32,893 nt of DNA from Phycisphaerales bacterium (GTDB lineage: Bacteria; Bacteroidota; Bacteroidia; Chitinophagales; Chitinophagaceae), in the NCBI GenBank assembly GCA_030054025.1, contig JASGCQ010000020.1:1-32893 (forward strand), written 5' to 3'. The notes below the pieces were generated by a model. The model searched no databases. It was not told the origin of the DNA and was given only the letters and a program-made list of their open reading frames with translations. A program made the position numbers and the translations under genes. Positions within the stretch are counted from its first letter, which is position 1. Every line of letters starts with the position of its first letter. Positions 1 through 7,161 of this stretch are shown here, in pieces.

Positions 1-49
1 CAAAGCGAATAAAATCAATACTTTCTTCGTGAGACCTAAACGCCTATAC

Positions 50-187
50 CTAATAGTTTTTATACAGAATAGCAGATAGTATAAAACCACCTGAGAGACC
101 AAATTTATAACCTACCCTTCCTGAAAAAATATCAATATCTAATAATGACAACGCTGTATCTTGAAAAATAAATTTATCAGTATTCAT
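50..187 (-). CDS. Small 45-residue protein overlapping the upstream metalloprotease gene
   Basis: An ATG at 185-187 on the minus strand overlaps the TGA (177-179) of the metalloprotease gene by 11 nt and opens a 45-codon frame ending at a TAG at 50-52. The product begins MNTDKFIFQ and ends GLSGGFILSAILYKNY. The overlap is typical of translational coupling in an operon, so it may be real despite its size. The C-terminal GLSGG followed by a hydrophobic stretch faintly recalls the GLxxGxxG pattern of LanC-type cyclases, which would fit the locus, but the match is too short to assign. It could equally be the 5' part of a longer gene interrupted at the TAG. No function is claimed. Confidence 0.35.
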   Translation of the reverse strand: MNTDKFIFQDTALSLLDIDIFSGRVGYKFGLSGGFILSAILYKNY

Positions 188-1310
188 GTATTTTTAATAT
201 TAAATATTGATGAAACTGTGTTGTGGGTACACCCAACAACATAGGTAATTGTATTTCTAGTTGATCTAAAGGAATTTTTAGAAAATCAACTAAGCCCTTC
301 CTACCTCTTTGTTCATAAACAAGTTTAGCTAGAAGCCCGCCTATTGCATATAAAGTAGATACATCATTATCGATTTTTATGTTTGAAGTAAGTAGTGTTT
401 TTAAGTCGTAATCATTGTTTTTTTTTAAAAACGCACTAAGTATTTTTAAGTGATAGGTAAGTGGTTTCTCTGAACTTCCTCCCAAAAGAGTAGCGATGCC
501 TTCTGAAGCTAAATTTGATAAATTATCATAATCATTCAAATACAGATGTACAAGCTCGTGCGGGTAATATTCACTATTATTAGCCGCATAAATGATATTT
601 TCAAGATTTTGACCTCCCCTTCTAGCATAGCCACCATTTCTTGCCAAAAACATATTGTAAACAAAATCAAAACCTTGAAGATTCATTAATTCAATAGGAT
701 TTGTACAAGAAAAATAAGTTATTTTTTTGGAGCTTACACCAAAGAAATGAGCTATACTATCATTAAAATGATTTAGTCTTTCTGCATTTTTTTTTGAAAA
801 ATTTTCAGAAGATTGCTTATAGTAAACAATATTGCCGATTTTTGTTGTGTACCAGTTTTTGATGTATAAATCAGTGTACTTTTCGAATGTAAAATTATTT
901 TGAATAGAATCATAATTAGCAACAAGATTGTAAATAGCTCGTATAGAATTGTGTATTGAATCGTCATTTGATGTATATGCAATCTTCAATAAATATTTTT
1001 TTTCGGGTACAAAATCAATAACACCTAAAACAGTAGGCTCGAAAAAACGTATTCCATCAATATATTCAATTTGGTAAAGGTCATAAACCAACTCTCCTCC
1101 CCATTTTTGTTTAGATTCGGATGTGAAAAAATTATATGCTTTAGAGGTGTCATTTTTTTCCTTTAAAAAAATATCTAATTGTTTTAACAACTCTTGTTTG
1201 TGCTTGACAGTATTGTTATTAATTTTGTTAAAAATGTTTAAGTACAAGTCTTGCGCAGTCAAATCAAAACTATTGATAAACAATACTATAAAAAATGAAA
1301 TTTTTTTCAT
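177..1310 (-). CDS. Secreted gluzincin-like HExxH metalloprotease of the RiPP-like locus
   Basis: Starting at the ATG at 1308-1310 the product has 377 residues and opens with a signal peptide (MKKISFFIVLFINSF, then LTAQ). The frame runs back to 1349, but that extension lies inside a hairpin and would spoil the signal peptide, so the internal start is chosen. Residues 251-255 read HELVH, a zinc-binding HExxH, and a glutamate (ASEG, about residue 270) follows 14 residues after the second His, as expected for the third ligand of gluzincins. No named family is recognised and the rest is unassigned. It lies 3' of a Gly-Gly leader peptide gene on the same strand and a small ORF overlaps its end. 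A periplasmic or cell-envelope peptidase acting on the peptide product, or in immunity, is an inference from position only. Confidence 0.7.
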   Translation of the reverse strand: MKKISFFIVLFINSFDLTAQDLYLNIFNKINNNTVKHKQELLKQLDIFLKEKNDTSKAYNFFTSESKQKWGGELVYDLYQIEYIDGIRFFEPTVLGVIDFVPEKKYLLKIAYTSNDDSIHNSIRAIYNLVANYDSIQNNFTFEKYTDLYIKNWYTTKIGNIVYYKQSSENFSKKNAERLNHFNDSIAHFFGVSSKKITYFSCTNPIELMNLQGFDFVYNMFLARNGGYARRGGQNLENIIYAANNSEYYPHELVHLYLNDYDNLSNLASEGIATLLGGSSEKPLTYHLKILSAFLKKNNDYDLKTLLTSNIKIDNDVSTLYAIGGLLAKLVYEQRGRKGLVDFLKIPLDQLEIQLPMLLGVPTTQFHQYLILKIHEY

Positions 1311-1323
1311 AATTATTTTTTTA

Positions 1324-1359
1324 AAAGCGGGGGCAAACAAATGTTGCAAACCCCGCTTT
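1324..1359 (-). terminator. GC-rich hairpin between the precursor peptide and the metalloprotease
   Basis: AAAGCGGGG (1324-1332) pairs perfectly with CCCCGCTTT (1351-1359) around an 18-nt loop. On the minus strand it starts about 20 nt after the stop of the small peptide gene and is followed by TTTT then an A-run. This fits an intrinsic terminator or an attenuator that makes the peptide mRNA more abundant than the downstream protease mRNA. Confidence 0.55.
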
Positions 1360-1379
1360 GAATTTGCTAAAAATCTAAC

Positions 1380-1592
1380 CTAACCACCAATTGGACGAGG
1401 AGGAACGCCTATTGGATTAACCCTTGTTGGGCAAGCCGCAGGGCTAGTACAAACAACAGTTCCGTTATTCGAGGTCAAATTATCACACGAACCAACTCCT
1501 CCGTTTATATTTCCTAACTCTTCTTTGGTCAAATTTGCAATTTTTTCTTTATTCAACTGCAATTTAGCAGTATCCAATTTTATTTTTTTCAT
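1380..1592 (-). CDS. RiPP / class I lanthipeptide-like precursor peptide 1 (Gly-Gly leader)
   Basis: A 70-residue peptide. The leader begins MKKIKLDTAKLQLNKEKI, carries an acidic TKEEL segment and ends in NINGG at residues 31-32. This is the Bacteroidota natural-product-precursor leader type (KLxLNKExIxxL...GG) used by class I lanthipeptide-like and related peptides. The 38-residue core holds three Cys (36, 48, 54), seven Ser/Thr (35, 40, 41, 45, 49, 50, 56) and a Pro/Gly-rich tail (VPPRPIGG), so thioether or disulfide rings are possible. The start has a GAGAGGG purine tract about 8 nt upstream, unusual for this phylum. It lies between a LanB-like fragment and a secreted metalloprotease. It is paralogous to the peptide at 4495-4695, with a near-identical leader and a different core. 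The precursor nature is well supported; the modification type is inferred. Confidence 0.75.
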   Translation of the reverse strand: MKKIKLDTAKLQLNKEKIANLTKEELGNINGGVGSCDNLTSNNGTVVCTSPAACPTRVNPIGVPPRPIGG

Positions 1593-1596
1593 TTTT

Positions 1597-1623
1597 CTTA
1601 CCCTCTCGGGATTTTGTTTTATT
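1597..1623 (-). promoter_or_regulatory. Conserved 27-nt upstream element, copy 1
   Basis: This 27-nt block directly upstream of precursor 1 is identical to 4700-4726 upstream of precursor 2. It contains TCCCGAGAGGG, whose GAGAGGG can serve as a ribosome binding site about 8 nt before the ATG; the first half of it (CCC...GGG) could also form a small hairpin. Identity ends abruptly on the upstream side, so the duplicated unit seems to be this block plus the leader-coding region. Confidence 0.65.
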
Positions 1624-1912
1624 TTCCCTTCCTCTCTAACGCCGTGGTCGGGGTGGTTAATTCAGCGTCCCATTTATCCTCATTGCGAATGCGAGGTTTC
1701 CAGTTTTGTATCGTTCTTACAACGAGATGGTCTGTGTTTGCTTCACCATTGTTTTCCGTTATTGTTTTTTTGCTTTGTTCCCAAGTTATTGGTGAAGAAA
1801 GATAAATTCCCTCATCGACCAATTTCGGTAATGGCTCATTAAAAGAAAACGCTTTTTTAAGACTTTGAACTGGCAGTCGAATAATAGCTTTAGAATATGT
1901 GTTTAAGCCCAT
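1619..1912 (-). pseudogene. Truncated lantibiotic dehydratase (LanB) N-terminal remnant
   Basis: A 97-codon frame whose ATG (1910-1912) lies 2 nt after the TAA of the S41 protease gene, so the two were probably translated together. The first ~48 residues (AIIRLPVQSL, then EGIYLSSPITWEQ) match the pattern at the N-terminus of class I lanthipeptide dehydratases in Bacteroidota, where an (I/V)RTP motif is followed by an EAIYLASPxLYE segment. A complete LanB is roughly 700-1000 residues. Here the resemblance stops near residue 48 and the rest runs into an unrelated GC-richer segment, so nearly all of the enzyme is missing. I read it as a deletion remnant; a short independent protein is the alternative. 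The assignment rests on motif recall, not an alignment. Confidence 0.5.
1624..1770 (-). repeat. Higher-GC segment at the LanB truncation, possible interspersed repeat
   Basis: Between the part of the upstream frame that resembles LanB and the conserved block before precursor 1 lies about 145 bp with visibly higher GC than its surroundings. It includes CCACCCCGACCACGGCG on the minus strand. It stays open in the LanB-like frame up to about 1619, but its translation (RIRNEDKWDAELTTPTT and flanks) no longer resembles LanB. It may be an inserted extragenic repeat that truncated the gene. No second copy is visible in the window, so the repeat nature is unproven. Confidence 0.3.
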
Positions 1913-1914
1913 TT

Positions 1915-4173
1915 TTACTGTTTTTCAATCAGTTGTATTGCTTTTTCAATCAATTCATCCCTTCCTTCGGCAATGCCTTTTATAGTTGGCTCTACCTCAA
2001 TATCAATTTTCACTCCCGCTCTTTGGGTTTCAGTACCGTCAGGGTACAAAATATTGATGCTGGTCATCAAAGATTTAATGCCTCCTGGCAAAAAAATGTC
2101 GGTTACATTACCATCGGCACCTGATGTTTGGCTGCCGATAATGAGGGCTTTGGGTGCAGTTCTTAAGGCCATTGCAGTAAATTCAGACTGGCTCTGTGTG
2201 GCTTCATTAACCAAAATGATAACTTTTCCTTTATAATAATCAGGATTGTTTTCTCCATTTGTATAACTATCTCCATAATAAAAATTTCCGGGTTTATTGG
2301 GATGTGAGTACGCAAAAGATACAAATTTTGACGGGGCATTTTTTAGCCAGCGTCCATACACAAAAGGTATAAATGTTGCTGGATACGAACGGAGGTCTAT
2401 AATTAATCCATTTGTTTTATTAAATTGATTAAAAAGAGTAGTTGTATCGCCATCTTTAAGCAATGCAGGATAAATATATCCGATGTTGTTGGCCAGTATT
2501 TTAAACCCCTTTCCTTCTGAAAATTTGATTAATGATTTTTCAAAATTTAGACTATAAAAATCGCATTTGCCGAGTGTTATCGTTTTTATTATCTCATTCG
2601 AGCGAATGGTTAGTAAAGTTTCCTTCTTCTTTCCCCTTAATAAAAAGCCAGAGTACGATGACATTAATTTTAACATCCTTGGGCGATTCGACGCTTCAAT
2701 AAATTGTTCGTTTTTGGCTACAATTTTAGCTACCGCTACACCGTCTATTGCTTCAATAATATCACCAATTTTTAATTGTGCCTTCGCACCAGAGTCATCA
2801 TTTAAAAAACCCGTAACCACAAGTTTATTTTCAATAAAGGAGGTTTTTATTGGCAAGCAAAGATTTCCTTTTAAAGAATCGACGCCTGATGAATAACTCA
2901 ATACAGATGCATGACTATCGTGTACTCGTGCAAGCGTTTTCAAGCAAGCAGCAGCATACTGTTCTTCATTTTTTGCATTTACAAAATCTGGGATAAGTGT
3001 GGGCAATACTGCGTTCCAGTCTTCTCCTATAAGGTGCTTGTAAGGGAAATAATACTGTATAATATTCCAATATCGAAATAAGGCCAACAGGCGCATTCCC
3101 GCATCTGGGTAGGGGCAGGTTTCGTATAGGTTTTCGTGCTTAAAAATAGTATAACCTTTAATCCGTCCAAAGCCCTGATAATAATGGTTTGGAATTCGGG
3201 AATATTGATTGATCAGTTTTTGTATTTGTTTCTTTACTTCTGGTGGATAATGTTTTTCATTCAAAAGAAAAGTAAAGTCCGCTTCGTTTTTGATGCGGAA
3301 AGTATCCCTGATTTCTGCTCTTTTAGGAAAAGAGTCTGAGCCAAGACTGAACATCCATTTTTGCAATATCTTGTCCGTTTCTGCATCATTATTTGCCGCC
3401 AACACGTTTGGCAACAACCTAAACAATGAAGCATCCATATTGATATTGCCTGCACCAACAGCAGGATGGTAATATTTAAGGAAACCCCACAATACGCCCA
3501 ACTTCTGCAACTGCGCCACCTTTTGCGGGTTCAATGCAATTTCTGCAATGCCCGAGCCAATATTAAAACCCGAATCTTGATCTGCTGGGTACATATTGGG
3601 GCGCAACGGTTGCAGGTTTTCTATTGGCTCACCATCCACGGAAAAACTTAGCTCGTCAACCCACACTGAACCTTTACCCCTCAAAAAGCCACCAAAAACT
3701 ATTTGTTCACCAAATTGTAAATCGTTAGGAATGTTGGCAGATACTTTTATCCACCCCTTTTTAGCCGAGTCAAAATTTCCCTTTTTGAAATCACCGACAA
3801 GATATTGCTCATCTATATCGTTCAATCGTATAAAAATACCTGCTTCACTATTGGTGTTTAATTCGGCTTTTACATAACCCGTAACTTCTAAGTTTTTACC
3901 AAAATAAATATTGGGAATGGTGTATGTACACACTGGCGTTCCTTTTGGCGTATCAAGGTTGCGGCTGATTCGTAAACAGTTCCCTCCTTTGAATTTTATT
4001 GCAGAGTCAATATTTAGGGTTGCCGCATTACTATCTGGCGTCCAAAATTCCCAATCTACAGGAGCTTTATGCTTCGCCAATTTCTCAAAACCAAGTATTG
4101 CTTTAGTATCCCTTTGGGCAAAAGAAAAAAAAGGCAGGATGACAAAAATTATTGTTTTAAAAAGTGTTTTCAT
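1915..4173 (-). CDS. Secreted S41 family (C-terminal processing/tricorn-like) peptidase
   Basis: 752 residues with a signal peptide (MKTLFKTIIFVILPFFSFA, cut before Q20). Residues ~50-185 look like a jelly-roll carbohydrate-binding-like domain (FKGGNCLRIS ... WVDELSFSVDG). A helical part with LWGFLKYYHPAVG and a second FRYWNIIQYYFPY motif follows, then DSHA (His421), a PDZ-like segment (~430-530) and the S41 catalytic core (~560-745). NEATQSQSE (656-664) holds the predicted nucleophile Ser661. The Lys of Ctp-type enzymes is not evident in GSQTSGADG, pointing to the tricorn/Ser-His-Glu type. This architecture occurs in many Bacteroidota S41 proteases. It sits between two leader-peptide genes and directly before the LanB-like fragment, so a role in leader removal or peptide turnover outside the cytoplasm is possible but inferred. 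The start follows from the signal peptide. Confidence 0.85.
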   Translation of the reverse strand: MKTLFKTIIFVILPFFSFAQRDTKAILGFEKLAKHKAPVDWEFWTPDSNAATLNIDSAIKFKGGNCLRISRNLDTPKGTPVCTYTIPNIYFGKNLEVTGYVKAELNTNSEAGIFIRLNDIDEQYLVGDFKKGNFDSAKKGWIKVSANIPNDLQFGEQIVFGGFLRGKGSVWVDELSFSVDGEPIENLQPLRPNMYPADQDSGFNIGSGIAEIALNPQKVAQLQKLGVLWGFLKYYHPAVGAGNINMDASLFRLLPNVLAANNDAETDKILQKWMFSLGSDSFPKRAEIRDTFRIKNEADFTFLLNEKHYPPEVKKQIQKLINQYSRIPNHYYQGFGRIKGYTIFKHENLYETCPYPDAGMRLLALFRYWNIIQYYFPYKHLIGEDWNAVLPTLIPDFVNAKNEEQYAAACLKTLARVHDSHASVLSYSSGVDSLKGNLCLPIKTSFIENKLVVTGFLNDDSGAKAQLKIGDIIEAIDGVAVAKIVAKNEQFIEASNRPRMLKLMSSYSGFLLRGKKKETLLTIRSNEIIKTITLGKCDFYSLNFEKSLIKFSEGKGFKILANNIGYIYPALLKDGDTTTLFNQFNKTNGLIIDLRSYPATFIPFVYGRWLKNAPSKFVSFAYSHPNKPGNFYYGDSYTNGENNPDYYKGKVIILVNEATQSQSEFTAMALRTAPKALIIGSQTSGADGNVTDIFLPGGIKSLMTSINILYPDGTETQRAGVKIDIEVEPTIKGIAEGRDELIEKAIQLIEKQ

Positions 4174-4494
4174 TTGAATCGTTGTCCTATAAAAGTTAAG
4201 CGTTAATTCATAATATTATTTGCTTTATTACAGATTGCGTGGTTAAATTGCAATTTATTGATTATAAAAATTAAGAACTAATATTTTATAGTGCGTAGCA
4301 TTAATTTTTTTCAGGCCAGGGGGCTGTAAAGCAATACAGTATTAATTTTACAGAGGTCTAAAAAGTAAAAAATAAATATATTGAGTAATGTATATTTATA
4401 AGTATAGATAAGAAACAGATGTAAAAACCGCTTAATCAGCTTTTACACCTGTTCCTTAATTTGAAAACCTTATTGCTTTCAGATGATATCGCTA
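4174..4494. other. Intergenic region between precursor 2 and the S41 gene
   Basis: About 320 bp of AT-rich sequence without a gene. Besides the terminator-like hairpin at 4412-4455 it contains two mutually exclusive small stems: CTGTAAA (4324-4330) can pair with TTTACAG (4347-4353), or CTGTA with TACAG (4335-4339). The promoter of the S41 gene should lie here on the minus strand, but I see no clear TTG/TAnnTTTG pair; TAACTTTT near 4190 is the closest -7-like match. Confidence 0.4.
4412..4455 (-). terminator. Hairpin terminator downstream of precursor peptide 2
   Basis: 4412-4428 and 4439-4455 form a 17-bp stem with a 10-nt loop. Three positions are A/C mismatches on the plus strand but G-U pairs on the minus strand, so the helix is complete only in minus-strand RNA, the direction of the peptide gene that ends 40 nt upstream. 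A U-rich but interrupted tract (UUUCUUAUCU) follows. Confidence 0.6.
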
Positions 4495-4695
4495 TCACTT
4501 TGGTCGTTGTGGCGTAGGTCCTCCTGTAGTATCAATACACCAAGCAGATTTTGGAAGATTAATAACAATAACAGTGTCGGGACGTCCAACCGAATTTCCA
4601 CCGCCTAATACCCTAGATAGTTGTCCTGAAGACAAATCTTTTACCTTTTCTTTGTTCAACTGCAATTTAGCAGCATTCAATTTGATTTTTTTCAT
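4495..4695 (-). CDS. RiPP / class I lanthipeptide-like precursor peptide 2 (Gly-Gly leader)
   Basis: A 66-residue peptide with leader MKKIKLNAAKLQLNKEKV, then a segment ending LGGG (31-33). The first 17 residues differ from precursor 1 at only two positions, and the coding DNA includes an identical 18-nt stretch. The core (34-66) is unlike precursor 1: it has a single Cys (53), Ser/Thr at 35, 41, 50, 56, 57 and 61, a hydrophobic VIVINL stretch and a Pro-rich basic tail (GGPTPQRPK). One Cys allows at most one thioether ring, so a different modification or a degenerate core is possible. The same 27-nt block precedes the start. It is followed by its own hairpin terminator and is transcribed away from the broken regulator at 5224. 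Conserved leader plus divergent core is the hallmark of RiPP precursor families. Confidence 0.72.
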   Translation of the reverse strand: MKKIKLNAAKLQLNKEKVKDLSSGQLSRVLGGGNSVGRPDTVIVINLPKSAWCIDTTGGPTPQRPK

Positions 4696-4699
4696 TGTA

Positions 4700-4726
4700 C
4701 TTACCCTCTCGGGATTTTGTTTTATT
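4700..4726 (-). promoter_or_regulatory. Conserved 27-nt upstream element, copy 2
   Basis: Identical to 1597-1623. It lies 4 nt upstream of the ATG of precursor 2 and includes the GAGAGGG ribosome-binding-like tract. Only the 4 nt between block and ATG differ (GTAC-type versus A-rich), which marks the block as selected or recently copied. Confidence 0.65.
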
Positions 4727-5223
4727 AAACTTTTAAAAAATAGTACTGCCGCACTTATATCCGCCCCATGCAGTTAGCGGTTTTGAGGCCTTTTCTTTTG
4801 GGGTAAACCTCCGTTTGCCCGCCACAAAACCATTTCATCAAGTAGAGTGTTTGCAGCTACACTATTGATGTATTTGCATTGTCCGCCCTATCATACTACC
4901 TTTACTGCCGTCACAGCGTAGCGGTGTATAATAGTAACAATGTTGTACATCCGGTTTGGTCATCCGGCCATTTCGCAACGAGTAGTATTAGTGAGCGAGG
5001 TGTATTTTGGTAGGCATTATCGTTTGCCATTTTATCACCTTGATCCTGTGCTACTTCACTCTTTGCACCCGCTCGATTAACAATGTAAAATTATAGTTGT
5101 TTTTTTTAGTAGTTAAAAATATAAATTAATTGTCAATACAAAGTTTATTATAAAAACATCAATCAAATCAATAGCCTTGTTGTATCTTACCAACCGTTTT
5201 CTATAACACTATAATTACCCAAT
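4727..5223. other. Gene-free block of higher GC, possible repeat or decayed element
   Basis: About 500 bp without a convincing gene. From roughly 4740 to 5085 the base composition is visibly less AT-rich than the flanks. Minus-strand reading gives only short frames, for example one starting MKWFCGGQTEVYPKRKG and ending CMGRI near 4755-4840, which I do not call a gene. Beyond 5085 the sequence returns to very AT-rich DNA that must carry the promoter of the regulator at 5224. The block could be an interspersed repeat or mobile-element remnant; no inverted or direct repeat ends were found by eye. Confidence 0.35.
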
Positions 5224-5591
5224 ATGGCAGACATTGGCAAAAACATTTCGAGAATCAGGCTGTTCAAAAAGATTGGGCAAAAAGACATGGCAGATTATCT
5301 CAAAATCAGCCAACAAGAATATTCGCGCATAGAACAGAAAAAAGGATTGACGAGGCACTATTAGAAACGATTGCCAAAAAATTAGATTGCCCCGTAGAGG
5401 TCATCAAATCATTGGAGCAGTTTGATTTTACAATCCAAACTTTTAATCAAAACAATCGAGATAATAGTATTGGAGTAAATTTTAATTCCACAGAAAAACT
5501 AAGTGAAATATATGAACGACTACTCAAAGAAAAGGATGAAATGATACGATTGTATCAAGAACAGATAGCGCAATTAAAATCAAAAAAATAA
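5224..5591 (+). pseudogene. XRE-family helix-turn-helix regulator, frameshifted
   Basis: From the ATG at 5224 the frame encodes an XRE-type helix-turn-helix (IGKNISRIRLFKKIGQKD, then MADYLKISQQEYSRIEQKK) and stops at a TAG after about 46 codons. In another frame the expected continuation follows at once: RIDEALLETIAKKLDCPVEV, then an NNRDNSIG linker and a predicted coiled coil (EKLSEIYERLLKEKDEM to QIAQLKSKK) ending at 5589-5591. The break maps to the A6 run at 5338-5343. One more A would join the two parts into a 122-residue protein of normal length for small Bacteroidota XRE regulators. It is divergent from precursor peptide 2 and may have regulated it. A sequencing error or slippage-tolerant expression are the alternatives to a true pseudogene. 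Confidence 0.75.
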
Positions 5592-5921
5592 ACTTATAGG
5601 TGGTTTTTGTTTGCAAAACAACAGCCTATGTCAGGTAAATCTTTCTTTGCAGCAAATGCTTTTTGTTTAGATACTAACTCCTTCGGGAGCACGATCTAGG
5701 AATGAGTTTATTGCCTTTACCAATATTCACTACCAAAATGGTATAAAAAACTAACTGGGTTTTGCTCCCACCAAGCTAAACAGGGTAGGTTCAAAACCTA
5801 AGCAAGATAGCTTGGGCAACGAGTATTTGCTGTTGGTGGGAAAGCACTTTTATAGAATTTGAACAGTCAACAAACCGTATGACAACAAAATACTTTATTT
5901 TGCAGTCAAAATAATATAGCT
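5592..5921. other. Intergenic region upstream of lpxD
   Basis: 330 bp with no gene. It contains a short CTCC-TTCG-GGAG tetraloop hairpin (5678-5689), a TACCA-AAA-TGGTA hairpin (5731-5743) and the larger nested structure at 5761-5846. No clear -33/-7 promoter pair for lpxD was found; TATTTTG at 5896-5902 is the best -7-like match. Confidence 0.4.
5761..5846. ncRNA. Candidate structured RNA or nested inverted repeat upstream of lpxD
   Basis: An outer helix TCCCACCAA (5766-5774) / TTGGTGGGA (5833-5841) can be extended by TGCT/AGCA after a small bulge. Inside it CAAGCTA (5772-5778) can pair with TAGCTTG (5808-5814), sharing a few bases with the outer helix. This encloses a hairpin TAGGTT (5786-5791) - CAA - AACCTA (5795-5800). 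A further GCAA (5816-5819) / TTGC (5827-5830) hairpin would complete a three-way junction. It ends about 75 nt before the lpxD start. It could be a cis-regulatory RNA, a small RNA, or the footprint of a repeat element. Pairing was found by eye only. Confidence 0.35.
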
Positions 5922-6959
5922 ATGGAATTTAGCGCACAGCAGCTCGCCGATTTGTTGCAAGGACGTATAGAAGGTGATGCCTCGATAAAAGTCAATCAAC
6001 TATCGAGAATAGAAGAAGGGTTACTGGGTTCTGTTTCCTTTTTGTCCAACCCGCTTTATACCCAATACATCTATACTACCAAAGCTTCTTTGGTCATCGT
6101 GAATGATAGTCTTGAACTCACGGCTCCAGTATCCTGTACGCTCTTGCGTGTAGCTAGTGCAGAGCAGGCATTTTCCAAATTGCTTGAGCTATACAATCAA
6201 ATCAAGCTCAACAAAAGCGGTATCGCCGCACAGGCTTATATATCGCAATCTGCCAGCCTAGGCGAAAATGTGTATGTGGGCGCATTTGCCGTCATCAGCG
6301 ATGGAGCCAAAATTGGCAAAAATGTAAAAATATACCCTCAGGTATTCATCGGCGACAATGTAGTTGTGGGCGACAATACCACACTATTTGCAGGAGTAAA
6401 AATCTATGCTGATTGCGTAGTGGGTAAAGACTGTATCTTCCACTCTGGCACGGTAATCGGCAGCGATGGCTTTCGCTTTGCACCACAAAACGAGGGCACA
6501 AAAAAAATACCTCAAATTGGCAATGTGGTGATAGAAGATGATGTAGAAATAGGTGCTAATTGTGCCATAGACCGCGCTACACTGGGCTCTACCATTATTC
6601 GAAAAGGAGTAAAATTTGATAATTTCATCCACATAGCCCACAATGTAGAGGTAGGCGAAAACTGTTATTTTGCAGCCCATACTGTGGTAGCAGGCTCTAC
6701 TAAAATCGGCAAAAATTGTATGACGAGCGGACAAGTAGGCATTGTGGGGCATTTACAAATTGCCGATGGTACAATTGTAACGGCCCAATCGGGTGTCTCG
6801 AAAAGCATTAGCAAAAGTGGCGAAGTGCTTATGGGCTCACCTGCATTTGATGCCAATAAATACCGTAAAGCCTTTGTGCATTTCCGCAATTTGGATACTT
6901 TGGCGCAACGCATCGCCGCTCTTGAAAAACAATTGAAGGAGCAAAATGGCGGGCAATAA
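5922..6959 (+). CDS. lpxD: UDP-3-O-acylglucosamine N-acyltransferase LpxD
   Basis: 345 residues, the usual LpxD length. LpxD adds the N-linked 3-hydroxyacyl chain from acyl-ACP to UDP-3-O-acylglucosamine, the third step of lipid A synthesis, in the cytoplasm. The N-terminal uridine-binding domain (1-~100: FSAQQLADLLQG, VSFLSNPLY) is followed by a left-handed beta-helix of hexapeptide repeats (~105-300) and a C-terminal helical bundle (FRNLDTLAQRIAALEKQ). NFIHIAHNVEVG carries the catalytic His, His240, equivalent to E. coli His239. The NxxxxD-like SIxxxGxVLMGSPAFD region is typical of the family. Its last 14 nt overlap the next gene (ATG at 6946), so the downstream small membrane proteins are probably translationally coupled. 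The usual neighbours lpxA/lpxC/fabZ are not in the window. Confidence 0.96.
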   Translation: MEFSAQQLADLLQGRIEGDASIKVNQLSRIEEGLLGSVSFLSNPLYTQYIYTTKASLVIVNDSLELTAPVSCTLLRVASAEQAFSKLLELYNQIKLNKSGIAAQAYISQSASLGENVYVGAFAVISDGAKIGKNVKIYPQVFIGDNVVVGDNTTLFAGVKIYADCVVGKDCIFHSGTVIGSDGFRFAPQNEGTKKIPQIGNVVIEDDVEIGANCAIDRATLGSTIIRKGVKFDNFIHIAHNVEVGENCYFAAHTVVAGSTKIGKNCMTSGQVGIVGHLQIADGTIVTAQSGVSKSISKSGEVLMGSPAFDANKYRKAFVHFRNLDTLAQRIAALEKQLKEQNGGQ

Positions 6960-7161
6960 TCAAAACAATAAGGAACTCTTGCAATATGCCGGACTGGCAA
7001 CCCAATGGTTGGTGATGCTTGGTCTGTCTGTATGGGCCGGCATGGCTATAGACAACAGAATGAACGAGCATTCTAGGTTATTTACTATCATATTACCTTT
7101 ACTGGCACTGAGTCTATCGCTCTGGCAACTGATTCGAAAATTCAACAAACCCAAAAAATGA
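6946..7161 (+). CDS. atpZ: AtpZ/AtpI-like F0F1 ATPase-associated small membrane protein
   Basis: 71 residues with two transmembrane helices (YAGLATQWLVMLGLSVWAGM and FTIILPLLALSLSLWQLI) separated by a short polar turn (DNRMNEHSR). This is the pattern of the ATPase gene-1/AtpZ family (PF09527), thought to assist F0 assembly or Mg2+ handling in the membrane. The GxxxG-like spacing around LGLSVWAGMAID is characteristic. The start overlaps lpxD by 14 nt, and the stop overlaps the next ATG (ATGA at 7158-7161). In many Bacteroidota this gene heads the atpB-E-F operon; here the ATP synthase subunits do not follow. Confidence 0.75.
   Translation: MAGNNQNNKELLQYAGLATQWLVMLGLSVWAGMAIDNRMNEHSRLFTIILPLLALSLSLWQLIRKFNKPKK

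Follow-up and report, generated by a model that had tools for sequence, protein, structure and literature searches.

A shared 27-nt upstream block links predicted peptide precursors of two kinds in one genome and at some of them lies beside a diverged relative of a candidate pseudoknot RNA

The window, by which we mean the whole 32,893-nt stretch of DNA analyzed here, carries on its minus strand, in order of reading, a predicted peptide precursor (precursor 2), an S41-family peptidase gene, a 97-aa open reading frame (ORF), a further precursor (precursor 1) and an ORF with a HELVH motif, together with the following upstream elements:

177..1349, minus strand: 390-aa ORF downstream of precursor 1, with the HELVH motif recognized by eye
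1380..1592, minus strand: precursor 1, 70 aa, with an L1a leader ending in Gly-Gly (31-32) and a core with three Cys
1593..1777, minus strand: type B upstream region, sharing 97% identity with the sequence that precedes the grasp-with-spasm candidate on contig C63
1597..1623, minus strand: first copy of the 27-nt block, 4 nt before the ATG of precursor 1
1619..1912, minus strand: 97-aa ORF, a predicted LanB relic (about 46 LanB-like residues at 1766-1903) followed by the type B region
1621..1670, minus strand: diverged relative of a pseudoknot RNA family, scored by model R3 at 23.5 bits (E 6.2e-05, 75 kb searched)
1915..4173, minus strand: S41-family peptidase between both precursors (PF03572, 53.5 bits, cut-off 24)
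4495..4695, minus strand: precursor 2, 66 aa, with an L1a leader ending in Gly-Gly (31-32) and a core with one Cys
4664..5098, minus strand: type A upstream region, extending into the leader, 94% identical to C115:22843-23276 and 93% to C89:1-223
4700..4726, minus strand: second copy of the 27-nt block, 4 nt before the ATG of precursor 2

An earlier note on this DNA had described two RiPP precursors with almost the same leader, Gly-Gly at the same position and cores of three versus one Cys, and both ORFs proved to be real and to have these properties. Each leader is 32 residues long, and the RiPP character claimed for it is borne out by a search of RiPP precursor models, in which precursor 1 (35.8 bits) and precursor 2 (24.9 bits) both passed the curated cut-off of 22 for NF038153 (lant_leader_L1a). 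The leaders contain LQLNKEKIANL and LQLNKEKVKDL, respectively, and thus the LxLxKx5L pattern reported for class I LanA peptides of Bacteroidetes, which GG sites and C39 proteases frequently accompany (PMC7268733). A GG/GA cleavage site and a core with Ser/Thr and Cys are present in both precursors, that of precursor 2 with its single Cys. The two loci share a 94-nt repeat of 87% identity, which includes the block and the start as well as most of the leader, and the cores beyond it are dissimilar. All 10 relatives of precursor 1 (1380-1592, minus strand) retrieved by protein search carry the precomputed domain PF28317.1; hmmscan of precursor 1 against the Pfam copy used found no domain.

Scans with NCBI models and Pfam found no family for the 390-aa ORF at 177..1349, whose HELVH fits HExxH, which we take to be a zinc-peptidase motif. 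A helix-turn-helix gene, in two pieces in different frames (5224-5364 and 5412-5591, plus strand), diverges from precursor 2, and another (L011, 9188-9550, plus strand) diverges from the C63 candidate; their matches, to PF12844 and NF041951 respectively, lie below the curated cut-offs, and it is possible that these genes are regulators of the peptide genes.

The block reads CTTACCCTCTCGGGATTTTGTTTTATT on the plus strand and is identical at both window sites, its distance of 4 nt from the ATG being the same in both genes, much as first described. Further copies, which the earlier note had suggested seeking, exist in the source genome (2,493,715 bases in 127 contigs), where the 24-nt core of the block occurs at five sites with at most three mismatches (four exact, one with a single mismatch) and a backwards-pattern control at 0 sites. 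All five blocks stand 4 nt upstream of the ATG of a short ORF. Three of these ORFs have L1a leaders (both window genes and a third precursor at C89:174, with 31.9 bits to NF038153) and two, on contigs C63 and C115, are grasp-with-spasm candidates. As the block precedes two ORFs with unlike leaders as well, it is more than the trace of an L1a gene duplication. The core motif of the C89 precursor (L012, 174-374), KKSxxNSxGCVCCP, recurs in proteins P0005 and P0006 from other sources, and the core of this precursor at least is therefore conserved.

The C63 and C115 candidates each lie upstream of an ATP-grasp enzyme and a SPASM maturase that score above the cut-offs of TIGR04192 and TIGR04193, the C63 SPASM protein barely so (176.2 vs 175), and neither candidate matched a precursor model. 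Contig C63 also holds one complete C39 peptidase exporter with an HlyD protein, and a second C39 exporter begins on C115, where it is cut by the contig end. Two short C39 peptidase pieces (G000:C61:1705-1803 and C63:9546-9638), one a 41-aa frame above the cut-off, the other falling below it and containing one TGA, are likely remains of further exporter genes. Grasp-with-spasm systems form graspetide branch 5 according to PMC8939145. The window genes resemble them in that the genome has two such clusters with candidate precursors behind the same block, but they differ in having another kind of leader and no such enzymes adjoining, no ATP-grasp or SPASM maturase being found among the window ORFs (1-7000, all frames). 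In a Chitinophagaceae MAG, an ATP-grasp gene (L093, 361-1371) is 97% identical to that at L013, 14706-15731, over a 73-aa C-terminal query; by eye its N-terminal half is different, and it is possibly a gene mosaic.

Upstream of the block, the sequence differs between the two window genes, and each version has its own copies elsewhere in the genome. Type B measures 185 nt and is found in two copies, with 172 nt unchanged relative to the C63 region, ending at ATGAAAAAA, beyond which the proteins are dissimilar. Type A (~434 nt) is found in three copies. Both types terminate in the identical block, and because each of them fronts an L1a gene and a grasp-with-spasm candidate, the leader has been shared across the two kinds of precursor twice, in two versions. 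Inspection by eye also allows a separate H-type pseudoknot to be drawn for type A at 4696-4830 (minus strand), with CCGC/GCGG and ACTGC/GCAGT.

The window's genome gave no match in the LanC family search (PF05147), in which one control genome matched, and the LanB search (PF04738) returned nothing in this genome and nothing in any control genome either. Residues 4-49 of the 97-aa ORF share 35% identity with the beginning of a 1069-aa frame in the relative Taibaiella helva (G006; E 0.0012), which is by far its best match outside its own genome; matches at E <= 1 were obtained in 19 of 59 genomes (its own included), mostly noise, and one of them, at E 0.77, was to the first part of a 1037-aa frame in G031. 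Both long frames are LanB by PF04738 (E 6.9e-141 in G006 and 3.1e-135 in G031), both adjoin L1a precursors (L059, L060), that of G031 together with LanC, and in both genomes C39-like and HlyD-like genes follow, as read by eye. The reverse search, with the whole G006 LanB against the window's genome, found a single site, window 1766-1903 (E 0.021). Pfam and PDB searches of the 97-aa ORF returned nothing. From these weak matches (35% over 46 residues), the start of the ORF is likely the relic of a LanB N-terminus. This predicted relic passes directly into type B sequence; the dehydratase gene was therefore probably truncated as the type B leader and precursor 1 arrived there, a conclusion to be read with the assembly in mind, since its 127 contigs break at these repeats and a misjoin at the type B repeat is possible.

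The proposal that both peptides are exposed to one processing system is thus only partly right: the leaders are of the RiPP type, but no LanC and only a 46-residue LanB relic accompany the window precursors, and the block also fronts grasp-with-spasm ORFs. We therefore regard a shared processing system as doubtful; a common 5' leader fits a shared module more than a common modification system, and this is the better supported view. The earlier note had also considered that no relative might carry such a leader near LanB or LanC; relatives do carry L1a precursors beside LanB, in one case with LanC. The likeness to class I LanA peptides of Bacteroidetes lies in the NF038153 score, LxLxKx5L and Gly-Gly at 31-32, the difference in a genome with no LanB or LanC beside the precursors other than the predicted N-terminal relic. 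The two genes could still be ordinary class I lanthipeptides whose LanB and LanC are unassembled or lie elsewhere, with the block as the preserved 5' end of recent duplicates, and this would agree with leaders above the cut-off, with L1a precursors beside LanB in relatives and with contigs that break at the repeats. It is unlikely, however, in a genome rated 100% complete that has no LanC and a mere relic of LanB, and in which the block also precedes two ORFs with unlike leaders. The 4.8-Mb genome of T. helva yields 46 L1a leader matches, and LanB lies alongside in one of the nine stretches inspected.

Nine of these 46 T. helva leader matches are preceded by a shared upstream element, and about 36 are without it. 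Its consensus is CGCUGAACAACCNCUCCAU-GGCG-(n)-AAAGACAGGAGNGG, in which CGCU pairs with GGCG (stem 1) and a C-rich loop pairs with a G-rich stretch directly after GACA. The resulting predicted H-type pseudoknot of ~45 nt lies 8-26 nt before peptide genes in Chitinophagaceae and Chryseobacterium. An unrestricted pseudoknot search of the T. helva leaders failed to tell the elements apart from other leaders, and covariance models were therefore used instead: R1 was built from three T. helva elements, R2 from six sequences, and R3 without any sequence of the window's genome. Applied to the other T. helva elements, R1 placed four at E 1e-5, 1.7e-5, 0.015 and 0.53 (this last lying within the range of chance matches) and failed to find two. 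Rfam 15 had no credible match at the element, either in relatives or in either leader type, and even at E <= 10 offered nothing plausible for two elements and the window copy; no description of this RNA was found in the literature searched or in Rfam 15. Other T. helva precursors (L032, L040, L044, L050, L051, L075, L087) have an ACTGCA..TGCAGT-like dyad ~50 nt upstream of the ATG, in many cases with a TAnnTTTG-like promoter motif after it, and this dyad is possibly a second shared control in that genome.

Over 394 Chitinophagaceae genomes, R2 matched 51 at E <= 0.01, at 85 places, all of which were examined. At E <= 1e-5 there were 29 places, of which 28 had a pseudoknot helix of 4 bp or more, 28 a small ORF and 26 a GG leader; when the seven places of the T. 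helva starting set are removed, a GG leader is found in 19 of 22. The next steps yielded seven places up to 1e-4 (helix four, small ORF five, GG leader four), 13 up to 1e-3 (four, nine and four, respectively) and 36 up to 1e-2 (nine, 12 and three). For comparison, an ORF of the GG type was met at 228 of 20000 random positions in 40 loci of relatives. The 36 places between 1e-3 and 1e-2 were rejected as members, with a GG ORF in three of 36 and, in many, little beyond the GACAGGGGAG tail, and most of the weak places look like noise. The strong places cluster in one genus (G006, G128, G250). Among 395 phylum-wide genomes three matched at E <= 0.001, which is a lower bound, as this search missed the window genome's own copies; both samples were filtered strictly enough to do so.

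The pairing of both helices is supported by covariation. In A10, which has 43 distinct sequences, we counted 40 both-side changes against 15.2 +- 3.8 in shuffles (reached in 0 of 500), and 88.7% of positions pair, falling to 35-57% when partners are slid by 1-3 columns. The R models contain stem 1 only and so cannot favor the pseudoknot helix. Ten elements outside all models (six belong to Chryseobacterium herbae and C. sp. Bi04) gave 15 both-side changes against 5.7 +- 1.9 (0 of 500 shuffles). For further pair types, shuffles reached the observed number in 144 of 500 cases in the 10-element set and in 453 of 500 for the first six. In an anchored swap test that uses no model alignment, own partners pair at 79.6% and swapped ones at 65.5% (sd 1.7, maximum 72.9; 0 of 5000), with 51 of 53 elements parsed and several visibly misparsed rows kept in the count. 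It should be noted that related sequences inflate the covariation shuffles and that A10 and R3 have 46 rows for the 43 distinct sequences, the overlap of L136 and L168 giving three places twice (the swap test drops L168). The slid controls agree with the covariation, as does the set with the Chryseobacterium elements, which is separate from the models. Of the new results of this work, the RNA family in relatives is the most firmly supported.

The genes that the RNA precedes, assigned to kinds by reading of their leaders unless otherwise stated, are varied. L1a-like precursors follow it in G006, G128 and G250, with shorter ones in G352 and G376, and grasp-with-spasm precursors follow it in one T. 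helva cluster (L100) and as three in tandem in each of two Chryseobacterium clusters. A search of 40 grasp-with-spasm loci with R3 found the element in three (L094, L095 and L100, the last of which is inside the model). Additionally, it stands before look-alike leaders (G304, G250), bacteriocin-like ORFs with M..L.LNQME..GG leaders (G302, G241, G146, G099) and Sec-type starts (G304:C5, G059, G152 and, twice, G169). The common factor would seem to be exported peptides, not one enzyme class.

In the window, R3 ranks the copy before precursor 1 and its C63 twin first in 75 kb, the next match having E 0.96; the earlier models performed differently, R1 giving no match and R2 an E of 0.42, which is chance level. 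Aligned with the T. helva leader L049, type B scores 56, above all 200 shuffles (maximum 55). Stem 1 and the loop motif are kept, and the pseudoknot helix is absent at its usual place. A script identified GGGT, within the 27-nt block, as a 4-bp partner for the loop; GAGA stands before it in place of the GACA of the family. It may be, and this is a guess that rests on four pairs, that the block took over the 3' strand of the RNA. As the pseudoknot helix is not intact, the window copy is called a diverged relative and not a full family member. Type A, before precursor 2, was rejected as a member, with an alignment score reached by 38 of 200 shuffles and no R3 match. The RNA link to the window is therefore significant but partial, covering one of the two genes.

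The block and the upstream repeats could also mark the border of mobile or recombining repeat DNA with no regulatory role. In favor of this are the two long repeats in two and three copies and the confinement of the block to its own genome, the sole carrier among the 59 searched (own included). On the other side, the 4-nt distance to the ATG is constant in five of five blocks, both repeat types terminate in the same block, an RNA element related to type B occupies the corresponding position in other genera, and neither the block in viral contigs (exact 20-mer search) nor type A in plasmids was found, all of which makes a repeat of this sort quite improbable. That the L1a peptides are modified by the genome's own grasp-with-spasm ATP-grasp and SPASM enzymes, serving both leader kinds, is very unlikely, for although these are the sole RiPP maturases found in genome searches that covered the LanB, LanC and grasp-with-spasm families, and the shared block suggests common control, the L1a leaders are unlike those of the two candidates and the ATP-grasp enzymes of both clusters share just 39% identity.

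Taken together, we lean toward a reading in which the two window ORFs are double-glycine precursors whose own dehydratase has been lost except for a relic, and in which the five blocks belong to a shared 5' leader that controls translation. All five ORFs are likely to be translated from transcripts whose leaders end alike. In relatives, the pseudoknot would sequester the G-rich strand near the start codon, where an initiating ribosome could reach it, and the leader RNA may set translation of the peptides; the conserved unpaired letters GAACAA and AAAGACA suggest a bound ligand or protein. The leaders were presumably copied from gene to gene by recombination. The C39 exporters of the grasp-with-spasm clusters would cut at Gly-Gly and secrete all five peptides, and the L1a peptides would now exit the cell without lanthionine rings. 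PreQ1-I and SAM-II are small H-type pseudoknot riboswitches, and the element resembles them in its ~45 nt, its two helices in H-type order, its conserved unpaired loop letters and a G-rich 3' strand just upstream of the start codon; in contrast, it matches neither these nor any other plausible Rfam 15 family, precedes peptide genes and is not known to bind a ligand. We give even weight for and against the wider proposal that an orphan riboswitch candidate gates the translation of secreted peptides across classes, one signal switching many RiPPs, and that in this genome it was remodelled, with the block as its new 3' strand, and copied onto unrelated precursors to give a five-peptide regulon of two RiPP kinds.

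RiPPs are classified by their modifying enzymes, and a cis-regulatory RNA that acts across classes would show that their producers control them as one group. Such a shared RNA would supply a motif for peptide genes that have no maturase neighbors and would allow its ligand or factor to be sought directly. The window would represent the evolutionary side of this, where precursors seem to outlive their dehydratase and to share a leader with peptides of another class.
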